Source of the DNA: Blastocatellia bacterium
GTDB taxonomy: Bacteria > Acidobacteriota > Blastocatellia > Pyrinomonadales > Pyrinomonadaceae
NCBI GenBank assembly: GCA_013697915.1
Contig: JACCVY010000050.1
Span: 1 to 64,000, forward strand
Reading direction: 5' to 3'
Length of the DNA: 64,000 nt
The translations under genes were made by a program, and so were the position numbers. The notes under the pieces are model-generated. The model worked only from the letters and a program-made list of their open reading frames with translations. It had not been told where the DNA came from and searched no databases. Of this stretch, positions 2,858 through 64,000 are shown one piece after another (within the stretch, counting starts at the first letter, position 1; each line of letters begins with the position of its first letter).

Positions 2858-2881
2858 AACTTGCGATATAGAACTACGTCA

Positions 2882-3388
2882 ATGGTCGGCGAACTGGAAG
2901 ACGAACGCATTCCGCTGGGTTACCTAATCACCTTTCGCAGTTATGGCACCTGGCTTCATGGCGACAAGCGTGGCTCAGTTGATCGGTTTCATAATCGCTT
3001 TGGCACGCCCCGAATTCCTCACAACGAACAATGGAAAAAATATAATCGCGAAGCACTCAGCCAACCGCCGGTGAAATTGCGAAGTCATCAAAGAGTGGTT
3101 ATTGAGAAAGCCATTCGCGAGACTTGCAAAATTCGCAAATGGGAGTTTTGGGTAACTAATATACGAACTAACCACGTTCACACGGTGGTGTCAGCGCCGT
3201 GCAAACCAGAAAAAATCCTCGCGGCTTTCAAAGCGAACGCAACTCGAGAATTGAGAGAAGCGGGTTGGTGGAATTCGAGCAGAAGCCCGTGGGTGGAGCG
3301 CGGTAGTAAGAGATATTTGTGGACCGAACAGGACGTCATTAATGCTGTTGTTTACGTTGAGTACGACCAAGGCGAACCGCTGCCCTGA
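2882..3388 (+). CDS. REP-associated tyrosine transposase (RAYT, IS200/IS605-like Y1 HUH enzyme)
   Basis: The gene encodes a single-domain HUH-class Y1 nuclease of the RAYT group, a domesticated relative of IS200 transposases that nicks REP hairpins in single-stranded DNA. Visible features are the N-terminal ITFRSYGTWLHGD strand typical of the family, the metal-binding HUH motif as HVH in RTNHVHTVVSA, and the C-terminal helix WTEQDVINAVVYVEY with candidate catalytic tyrosines. I prefer the ATG at 2882; an in-frame TTG at 2861 exists but abuts the REP. The protein is 168 residues, normal for RAYTs. REPs with the GTAG head flank the gene on both sides in opposing orientations, which is the usual REPtron layout. 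The gene looks intact. Confidence 0.9.
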   Translation: MVGELEDERIPLGYLITFRSYGTWLHGDKRGSVDRFHNRFGTPRIPHNEQWKKYNREALSQPPVKLRSHQRVVIEKAIRETCKIRKWEFWVTNIRTNHVHTVVSAPCKPEKILAAFKANATRELREAGWWNSSRSPWVERGSKRYLWTEQDVINAVVYVEYDQGEPLP

Positions 3389-3714: not shown

Positions 3715-4491
3715 TCAAAAGCGCAGTGACAAGCAGCTCAACCCGCCATCCATTTTTTGAAACTCCGTCATCTCAAGCGCGATTGTTTGGTAACCCAGCT
3801 CCGGCAATTTTCCTTCAAAGATAGGATGCCCGGCAGCCACCAACACGAAGTCATTGACACTGACACAATTGGCTGCGTACGCCTCAGCAGAATCCACGAT
3901 GACCAGATTGTAACCAGCAAACTCGGCGCGGCCGGCGATTGCTTCAGTTACCACCAAACGATTGTTGCCCAAATACGCGATGCCGCTTTTCAAATGCAAC
4001 AAGCTGCGTTCTTCTCGGATGTCCACCAAGCTGCACGTGTAATCAAATGGTGCGAGCAATTCAGTCAAATGTTGCGCGCCTGCTTCGTTTGTTCTTTGCG
4101 AAAGTCCGATGAAAAAATGACTACCGGCTTCGCAAACATCGCCGCCGTCAACAGTTCCCGGCGCGCCAATCGAGGATAGATTGGGAAAGAACTCAGCCAG
4201 CGCGCGTCCCATCCTCTCGACCTCACCAGCGCGGCTGGGCGCGCCTGGCCGCGTGAGCACCGCACAATGATTAGTGGTCACGATTGCGGTATCTTCAACA
4301 AAAGTGGAGTCCGGATGATTTGGATCAGGTTCCAGTCGGGTTACAGTTAGTCCACACCGCGCGAGCGCAGCGCAGTACGCTTCATGCTGTTCCAGCGCGC
4401 GTTCGTAATCGGGAGCACCAAGACCAGCCGTGGTTAGACCCTGCGCAAAGTTTGGCGCCGGAGGACGGACTATGGCTCTCGTAAACATCAT
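3715..4491 (-). CDS. N(G),N(G)-dimethylarginine dimethylaminohydrolase (DDAH)
   Basis: This 258-residue amidinotransferase-fold enzyme should hydrolyse asymmetric dimethylarginine, or a related guanidino compound, to citrulline and an amine in the cytoplasm. The catalytic cysteine is Cys253 in GGLSCLSLRF near the C-terminus and the catalytic His is His166 in LLHLKSG. Substrate-contact motifs FVEDTAI (residues 64-70) and DGGDV (115-119) are in place. Length matches the bacterial DDAH/citrullinase-like group. Two Met codons open the frame (MM), and either may be used. It is transcribed away from the DinB-like fragment and has no operon partner. Whether the natural substrate is methylarginine or free arginine-like molecules is open. 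Confidence 0.9.
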   Translation of the reverse strand: MMFTRAIVRPPAPNFAQGLTTAGLGAPDYERALEQHEAYCAALARCGLTVTRLEPDPNHPDSTFVEDTAIVTTNHCAVLTRPGAPSRAGEVERMGRALAEFFPNLSSIGAPGTVDGGDVCEAGSHFFIGLSQRTNEAGAQHLTELLAPFDYTCSLVDIREERSLLHLKSGIAYLGNNRLVVTEAIAGRAEFAGYNLVIVDSAEAYAANCVSVNDFVLVAAGHPIFEGKLPELGYQTIALEMTEFQKMDGGLSCLSLRF

Positions 4492-5091: not shown

Positions 5092-5889
5092 ATGCGAAGA
5101 TTCAACTGGCCAATCTGGGCGGGTTTCGTGCTGAGCGTGTTTGCGTTTATCAGCTACCCATTTGTTTTTGCCAGATGGTCCATGACGCGCGATTTTCCCT
5201 GGGCCAACCTCCTGTTGTTCGGAATTGCGGCCATCCTTTTGCTAATCGGATTTCGGCGTGCATTCGCTTCCGGACATACTCATCCAAAACGGAGGAAGAT
5301 TGCGGCTTCGCTCCTCGCAACCCTGAGCGCGCTCGTCCTGGGACTTTTTGTTTTTTCAACCTTCATCATGGCGTGCTGGCTGCCGGCCTCTCATGGCGCT
5401 CCCCAAATCGGGCAGAAGACGCCTGAGTTTTTGTTGGCGGATACGAACAACAAATCCGTAACGTTGGCCACGCTACTTTCGTCGCCAATCAACGGCCAGG
5501 CTCCAAAGGGTGCGCTGCTGATCTTTTACCGGGGCTATTGGTGACCCTCATGCAACTCCGAGTTGCGGAGCATTGAAGAGAGTTTGGATAAGTTTCACCA
5601 AGCGGGAATTAACCCGGTTGCCATCAGCGTGGACAGTCCCGAAGTTAACCGCGACCTCTGCCAGAAATCCGGATATACATTCACTTTTCTTTCTGATCCG
5701 AAAGCTGAAGCGATTCGCCGTTACGACCTGGTTCACGCCGGCGCCGGAATCAATGGCCAGGACATTGCGCGGCCAGCTGAATTCCTGGTGGATTCCTCCG
5801 GCACCGTGCGCTGGCTCAATCTCACTGAGAATTACTGGGTGCGCGCCCGGCCGGAACAAATTCTCGAAGCTGCGAAAACCCTTCGCTAG
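5092..5889 (+). CDS. Membrane-anchored peroxiredoxin-like selenoprotein with in-frame TGA (Sec151)
   Basis: Read with TGA at 5542-5544 as selenocysteine, this frame gives 265 residues. Three membrane helices (about residues 6-26, 38-54 and 66-92) lead into an AhpC/TSA thioredoxin-fold domain. The active site reads FYRGYW-U-PSCNSEL: U replaces the peroxidatic Cys of the RGxWCPxC family and a second Cys lies three residues on. Downstream strands VAISVDSPEVN and FLSDPKAEAIRRYDLV are typical of peroxiredoxins, and both sides of the TGA are in the same frame without an indel. A hairpin right after the TGA resembles a bacterial SECIS. The domain probably faces the periplasm and reduces peroxides or disulfides. 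An ORF finder would report two unrelated pieces, 5092-5544 and 5563-5889. Confidence 0.88.
5552..5570 (+). promoter_or_regulatory. Candidate bacterial SECIS hairpin of the peroxiredoxin gene
   Basis: CTCCG-AGTTG-CGGAG (5556-5570) is a perfect 5-bp stem with a 5-base loop that begins 16 bases after the TGA and has G as its second base. These are the usual bacterial SECIS requirements. An alternative pairing GCAACT-CCG-AGTTGC (5552-5566) competes with it. Confidence 0.65.
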
Positions 5890-63129: not shown

Positions 63130-64000
63130 TTACTTAAGAATGATTCGTTTGTCAGCGGCGCGGCGCGTTATTCGTTCCCGATCAAAATATTCGAGCAGCG
63201 GAATCGCGTATTTGCGCGAAACGCCAGCCAACTCCTTAAACTGTGACACGTCGATTAACCGCTCCGGCTCATGTTGCGAAGCGAAGTCCTGAAGCAATGT
63301 ACGCAATCGATTGATTGAGTTAACGTGCAAAAACATATCCGCCTGCGCCCGAACAAGAGTACCGTCATCAAGCAGCATTTGCAGAATTTTCCGCGCCTGG
63401 GGTCTTTGCGCCGGCATAACCCCGGCGCTTTCGAGAGCCTGGTCAAGAGTTGGTGGTTCAAGTCGCGCAGCCTGATAGATAGTCGCGATTTTTTCCCGCA
63501 GCGTCGTCTCGGCAGGGGAAAGATCGACCGTGTGTTCGCGGAGGCGAACCAAATCTTTTTCTGTAACCAGAGCGCCCTTACTTTCAAGCTGATTCATCAC
63601 GGCGCGAAATACTTCCGGCGCCGAGTGACTGAAGCAGCGCTCGCGTAAAAGTTCGCGCGCTAGTCCGCGCGATAAGGGGTCGCGTTGGTGATGAGACTTC
63701 ACTTCTGCAACTACCGCTTCGGCCAGTTTTTCAAAATTAGCCGTGCTGATGAATAACCCACTCGCATCAGTGATCCTCCCTTCCTGCTGGGCTTCGTTTG
63801 CAGCAGTGGACAAAACCGTATCGTTCAAACCCGTTCGGGCTATGAGTTGTTCAAGCTTCATCCCCTGGTCACCTGCCGCCAAAACAAAGGCTGCTAATTT
63901 TCTTGATCGTTCGGGTCGCATCAACTCACCCAGGCGCTCGTCAGTTTTTGCCAGTTCCCTGCCTCGATGTTTTGTGGCCAACGGATCGAGCACCAGGCCG
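63130..64000 (-). CDS. selB: Selenocysteine-specific translation elongation factor SelB, C-terminal part (N-terminus outside window)
   Basis: The frame is open to the window edge and lacks a start, so only the C-terminal 289 residues are seen. They form the winged-helix domains 2-4 of SelB that bind the SECIS hairpin: RHRGRELAKTDERL, RSRKLAAFVLAAGDQGMKLEQLIARTGL, LRERCFSHSAPEVFRAVMNQLESKGALVTEKDLVRLREHTV, and the terminal LIDVSQFKELAGVSRKYAIPLLEYFDRERITRRAADKRIILK, which is the most conserved part. The GTP-binding half is off the right edge. A hairpin ATGCCGTA/TACGGCAT overlaps the stop codon at 63130. Its presence shows that the organism can insert selenocysteine, which supports the two TGA-containing genes. 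Confidence 0.93.
   Translation of the reverse strand, partial: GLVLDPLATKHRGRELAKTDERLGELMRPERSRKLAAFVLAAGDQGMKLEQLIARTGLNDTVLSTAANEAQQEGRITDASGLFISTANFEKLAEAVVAEVKSHHQRDPLSRGLARELLRERCFSHSAPEVFRAVMNQLESKGALVTEKDLVRLREHTVDLSPAETTLREKIATIYQAARLEPPTLDQALESAGVMPAQRPQARKILQMLLDDGTLVRAQADMFLHVNSINRLRTLLQDFASQHEPERLIDVSQFKELAGVSRKYAIPLLEYFDRERITRRAADKRIILK

Follow-up and report, generated by a model that had tools for sequence, protein, structure and literature searches.

Peroxiredoxin-like thiol:disulfide oxidoreductases are proteins of the AhpC/TSA family (PF00578) that carry a UxxC motif in place of TxxU (PMC1088965, PMC13188914), and the disulfide reductase activity of this UxxC family is itself a prediction. 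In bacterial selenoproteins, a stem-loop with a small apical loop containing a G lies just downstream of the UGA (PMC1088965). Selenocysteine (Sec) is the minority state in the group known as Prx-like 1, for which the GOS survey counted 225 selenoproteins and 2,740 homologues with Cys (PMC1088965, PMC2398784, PMC13188914).

The gene described here lies in a 64,000-nucleotide stretch (hereafter the window; G000:C80:1-64000) of a 4.5 Mb draft genome (97.4% complete) whose nearest named relatives are Pyrinomonadaceae (Acidobacteriota). Its product shares with the Prx-like UxxC selenoproteins the AhpC/TSA domain, a thioredoxin-like UxxC motif and a bacterial SECIS just past the UGA, but its family adds an anchor of three helices, conserved and bearing a TRDxPW loop, and, in contrast to the mostly Cys-containing Prx-like 1, has Sec in every member found. 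ResA, TlpA and StoA resemble it in having a membrane tether, an exported thioredoxin-fold domain and a CxxC-type site; the window protein differs from them by its three helices, a domain structurally closer to peroxiredoxins and a Sec where their first Cys stands. An NCBIfam search returned no model near its cut-off for this protein, the best match being ResA (NF002854; 44 bits against a cut-off of 170), while the SelL-related redox protein model (NF040769) gave 38.7 bits against 120. Across the open-licence papers searched, we found no description of a three-helix anchor joined to a UxxC selenoprotein, and the selenoproteome reviews among them do not list the family. The UxxC Prx-like site is already known; the three-helix anchor beneath it is new.

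Reading frame and distribution of the in-frame TGA

The open frames at 5092-5544 and 5563-5889 share a single phase, and reading through the TGA between them yields one frame of 265 codons (Table 1). In agreement with the original prediction, the two frames form one gene: the Pfam AhpC-TSA match runs across the TGA (residues 106-241, 2.7e-25; score 89.1 bits, cut-off 26). Although the window holds 18 TGA-interrupted frames followed by some hairpin, 5092-5889 is the only one assignable to a known domain crossing the TGA. The UGA thus sits inside one conserved coding frame with purifying selection on both sides, as judged from pN/pS values of 0.35 for the membrane part, 0.30 for the domain before the TGA and 0.26 after it; by this measure, selection 3' of the TGA is at least as strong as that 5' of it. 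Upstream, the window also contains an IS200-like transposase gene (2861-3388; Y1_Tnp domain, TTG start, probably of the REP-associated type), next to which a reverse-strand gene (3715-4491) looks like an enzyme of the arginine deiminase/DDAH family.

Table 1 Features of the putative selenoprotein locus and of the selB gene in the window
Feature	Position	Strand	Details
Predicted selenoprotein gene, complete	5092..5889	+	265 aa with TGA read as Sec; stop TAG
Membrane helix 1	5116..5172	+	About residues 9-27; AlphaFold2 helix 6-24
Membrane helix 2	5200..5262	+	About residues 37-57 (AlphaFold2 37-57); conserved TRDxPW loop before helix
Membrane helix 3	5284..5376	+	About residues 65-95 (AlphaFold2 65-95); K/R-rich loop before helix
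AhpC/TSA-fold redox domain, probably extracytoplasmic	5407..5886	+	Residues 106-265; Pfam PF00578; PDB fold matches
In-frame TGA, predicted Sec151, first residue of U-x-x-C	5542..5544	+	Only internal TGA; motif FYRGYW-U-PSC
Cys154, second residue of UxxC	5551..5553	+	Invariant in both family alignments; at Prx peroxidatic Cys position
SECIS-like hairpin	5556-5570	+	Stem CUCCG/CGGAG, loop AGUUG (5561-5565)
selB, C-terminal part in window, Sec-specific elongation factor	63130..64000, continuing to C80:65040	-	SelB winged-helix domains

A survey of 119 genomes of the GTDB family recovered 16 full-length copies, the window included. The 15 further orthologues are 60-73% identical to the window protein and contain one internal TGA each, at the same alignment column in all 16 sequences. 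When 84,980 species genomes were scanned with patterns that end before the Sec residue, and are thus blind to it, 284 relatives were found, and all of the best 80 of these carry the TGA; they come from many classes of Acidobacteriota, from Verrucomicrobiota (Udaeobacter, Chthoniobacterales, Spartobacteria), from one Binataceae metagenome-assembled genome (MAG) and from others. Similarly, among 396 genomes of the phylum, 19 of 19 full-length matches below 1e-40 have one TGA, and with a wider profile applied to the phylum genomes down to 1e-25, the TGA is present in all matches that extend far into the membrane part, except for a split gene (G190:C292:18759-19543). There the membrane and redox parts occupy two overlapping frames, through a frameshift or a split, and the redox piece carries the TGA.

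The TGA stands at the position of codon 151 in each of the 96 members whose active site can be read: the window gene, the 80 named loci and 15 from the phylum survey, some species being present under two names. No Cys orthologue with the membrane part was seen among the 119 family genomes, the 396 phylum genomes and the 80 named loci, nor did any orthologue among the members examined have a frame ending at the TGA. In G113 a pair of fragments has no TGA, but these sit at the edge of a contig and leave out the active site. The membrane family is widespread in soil bacteria of the Acidobacteriota and Verrucomicrobiota, with one Binataceae record.

The downstream hairpin and the selenocysteine machinery

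Just 3' of the UGA the window sequence forms a stem-loop with a small apical loop that contains a G. The 5-bp stem and the G at loop position 2 are as originally described, but the hairpin (arms 5556-5560 and 5566-5570) starts 11 nt past the TGA rather than the 13 bases first quoted, which places the loop at +17 to +21. On its own this element is weak evidence: a 5-bp stem at the identical offset follows 23 of the 2067 TGA triplets of the window (7 of the 2067 when the second loop base must be G), and the single-sequence folding energy is not significant (z = -0.67). A scan of the window with Rfam gave no match at the gathering score.

It is conservation across relatives that makes the hairpin strong evidence. 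In the 16 orthologues, 80 of 80 cells of the stem are paired (100%), and the constrained stretch folds as CUCCG-AGUUN-CGGAG, with a fifth loop base that varies and is unpaired. Codons +4 to +9 past the TGA do not vary where the amino acid is conserved (AAC TCC GAG ... CGG AGC), and the hairpin codons, with an entropy of 0.21 against 1.31, are the most constrained stretch of the gene; likewise, synonymous divergence (pS) falls to 0.15 over the hairpin from about 0.70 elsewhere. An alternative pairing, GCAACU/AGUUGC (5552-5566), was rejected, being broken in 6 of the 16 orthologues. Adding the soluble paralogues, in which a hairpin such as UCGGC-AGUUG-GCCGA sits at the same offset, introduces two-sided changes at all five pairs and leaves 100% of cells paired. 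None of 500 shuffles reached the observed pairing score or covariation score (paralogues included, although related rows can inflate the test). Because of this effect of kinship, the compensated variants inside the membrane family are the safer evidence. All 96 members carry the hairpin, either at +12 (89 of 96, the stem being the compensated variant CCUCG/CGAGG in seven and CUUCG/CGAAG in one) or 7 nt further downstream (the remaining seven, with a CUGCA/UGCAG stem and, in six of them, an AGGUU loop). The shifted form (CUGCA-AGGUU-UGCAG) was noted in loci L148 and L150-L155, from other acidobacterial families, where the protein site is unchanged, and this displacement within a single branch of the membrane proteins is a possible case of SECIS relocation.

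The genes required for Sec decoding are all present in the source genome, making the Sec trait complete. The whole selB gene (C80:63142-65040), part of which falls in the window, scores 356.8 bits against TIGR00475, and a tRNA-Sec gene (selC; anticodon TCA, 67.7 bits, also called as tRNA-SeC by ARAGORN) is found 21 kb past the window end on the same contig; selA (541.9 bits) and selD (347.4 bits) are found elsewhere in the genome. The selD gene (G000:C265:5983-6912) itself has an in-frame TGA, in the motif CSG-U-AAK. A tRNA-Sec match above the gathering score is also present in six of six genomes with distant members, from several lineages, although the weakest of them (G489, 50.8 bits) is close to the score of a tRNA-Ser (47.6 bits).

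Other explanations of the TGA fare poorly against these data. It could be a true stop, leaving a 150-residue membrane protein and a downstream frame that is dead or separate; TGA is a standard stop in the source genome, and a TTG at 5563 could start the second frame. Yet the downstream frame is conserved in 96 of 96 members and under purifying selection equal to or above that on the upstream part, and a break here would cut the AhpC fold at its active site, making termination very improbable. A TGC or TGT converted to TGA by a sequencing or assembly error, or a TGA recoded to another residue such as Trp, is harder still to credit: the records are indeed draft metagenome assemblies, but 96 sequences, drawn from many separate assemblies, share this codon and none has TGT or TGC, TGA is the normal terminal stop of several orthologues, and homologues have Cys at the Sec position, with the SECIS and the Sec machinery present. 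The pN/pS after the TGA together with the Cys in soluble homologues is incompatible with a dead frame after a stop, with sequencing error and with general recoding alike. Given the conserved TGA, the SECIS-like hairpin and the complete set of Sec genes, the selenoprotein reading of the original prediction is upheld at the level of sequence, and TGA 5542-5544 is almost certainly read as selenocysteine.

Active site, membrane anchor and likely chemistry

The TGA had been assigned to the peroxidatic residue, which is incorrect. Ungapped alignment with peroxiredoxins of the same genome (FYRGYW-U-PS-C for the window protein, FYPLAW-T-PV-U for L004 and FYPKDF-T-SG-C for L003), as well as with solved PrxQ/AhpE-type chains, which give the same register, puts Sec151 in the place of the catalytic Thr/Ser and Cys154 in that of the peroxidatic Cys. 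The peroxiredoxin site is further altered by the replacement of Pro by Arg147 and of Arg by Pro228, so that only Cys154 is kept; the PxxxT/SxxC(U) motif with its catalytic Arg is accordingly absent, although the AhpC/TSA fold is present. Among redox-active residues, conservation is restricted to U151 and C154. In alignments with AhpC/TSA homologues, suggested earlier as a check for Cys at the TGA, the Sec position holds Cys in the exported soluble homologues (FYRGYWCPFC) and Thr in the two same-genome peroxiredoxins. With PF00578 above its cut-off and U151-P-S-C154 in place of TxxU, the window protein is, by sequence, a UxxC Prx-like protein and not a Sec peroxiredoxin; of the membrane-helix Sec peroxiredoxin first proposed, the AhpC/TSA fold and the anchor stand, while the active site is UxxC rather than TxxU.

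An AlphaFold2 model built from the 16 orthologues (mean pLDDT 84.5) contains three helices followed by a Prx-like domain, and together with hydropathy (1.80 for helix 1, the mean over 95 members) it bears out the three N-terminal membrane helices that had been proposed ahead of the redox domain. Compared with the PDB, the predicted redox domain matches AhpE and Bcp4 with Z of 21-22 over about 150 residues; among the 50 matches listed, the modelled domain is closest to true peroxiredoxins and no ResA or TlpA chain appears. Mean K+R counts are 2.25 at the N-terminus, 1.42 in the first loop (28-38), 4.62 in loop 55-72 and 0.84 after helix 3, a pattern that, by the positive-inside rule, predicts an N-in topology with the redox domain outside the cytoplasm. 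Signal-peptide or lipobox-like N-termini, recognised by eye in the soluble homologues, point the same way, and the selenol is thus probably extracytoplasmic, as had been supposed. Conservation in the membrane part (N5, TRDxPW, G53) exceeds what hydrophobicity calls for, which suggests that this part may do more than anchor; the TRDxPW loop between helices 1 and 2 (window 5175-5208, residues 29-39), in particular, is conserved across phyla beyond the need of a plain anchor. One speculative idea, to which we attach little weight, is that this loop with Asn5 and Gly53 binds a quinone-like membrane electron carrier or a partner, so that electrons would reach the external selenol directly at the membrane surface and the required potential would bar Cys, making Sec obligate.

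Taken together, the sequence features make an exported selenol-thiol oxidoreductase the most likely function, and we consider the joint reading of a membrane-anchored selenoprotein with its domain outside and UxxC disulfide chemistry probable. SelB and Sec-tRNA would decode UGA 5542 as selenocysteine, aided by the hairpin that follows, and the three helices would hold the protein in the cytoplasmic membrane with its AhpC/TSA-fold domain outside the cytoplasm. Sec151 would then act as the nucleophile on an oxidised substrate at the membrane surface, whether a disulfide or some other group; Cys154 would resolve the intermediate as a selenenylsulfide, and an exported reductant (thioredoxin) fed by a DsbD/CcdA-type protein would regenerate the site. 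The source genome has one DsbD_TM gene (C9:8134-8784). Three AhpC-TSA-type domains lie near it (G000:C9:7084-9289), a possible exported thiol-redox cluster.

A selenoprotein at this locus might instead reduce peroxides, with Sec151 or Cys154 acting on hydroperoxides at the outer face of the membrane, the other residue resolving, and a thioredoxin-like donor recycling the enzyme, in the manner of PrxQ whose resolving residue lies close by. The AhpC/TSA fold, nearest to AhpE and Bcp4 among the 50 matches listed, and the location of Cys154 at the peroxidatic position would fit such an activity, but three of the four peroxiredoxin catalytic residues are replaced (Arg147, Sec151, Pro228) and the genome already encodes a TxxU Sec-peroxiredoxin. 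The lost catalytic set and this separate enzyme lead us to favour disulfide exchange and to regard peroxide reduction as the less likely, though still plausible, activity.

Relatives of the membrane family and consequences for annotation

The same genome holds three more TGA-containing AhpC/TSA genes. One of them (L004, G000:C228) encodes the TxxU Sec-peroxiredoxin (TPVU), which shares the AhpC/TSA fold and an active-site Sec with the window protein but has this Sec three residues later, at the peroxidatic position, and keeps the peroxiredoxin Thr and Arg. The other two (L006, C194; L007, C236) encode exported or lipoprotein-like UxxC proteins with the hairpin offset of the window gene. Soluble or lipoprotein UxxC/CxxC paralogues (G000 C194 and C236; L043, L046 and L049) have FYRGxW[U/C]PxC, 31-37% domain identity, the hairpin offset and the AGUU loop in common with the window gene. 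Where the window protein has three helices, they have at the N-terminus an export signal or a lipobox-like sequence, and they form a tree branch of their own in which Sec and Cys forms both occur. A single label change accounts for the membrane family in a tree of 58 domains, although support for it as one clade is only 76/0, and the soluble Sec proteins form a separate, well-supported group among soluble Cys proteins. Most verrucomicrobial copies group together within the acidobacterial part of the tree, and L115 stands next to a copy from Blastocatellia; this suggests transfer of the gene, unless the placement stems from MAG binning errors.

A comparison of Pyrinomonadaceae and Verrucomicrobiota revealed no conserved operon partner. 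Neighbours in the former are MATE- or MFS-like transporters and DinB, DoxX-like and YCII-like genes, and in the latter zinc-ribbon-like, OPT-like and YchF-like genes (names partly from reading sequences); since they vary by lineage, we draw no functional link from context. At verrucomicrobial loci such as L097-L116, a coiled-coil gene often lies about 50 nt downstream, and its product looks, from its sequence, like the zinc-ribbon DUF164 type (a cluster in 15 loci).

Annotation with table 11 takes the TGA as a stop, so that proteins of this family are read as truncated and cut in two; the consensus of three helices, then FYRGxW-U-PxC and a hairpin at +12 can serve for their re-annotation. For a family of thiol oxidoreductases it is unusual to have Sec in all 96 members, with no Cys version seen, and this raises the question of why Cys would be insufficient, in an architecture that would place the selenol outside the cytoplasm.
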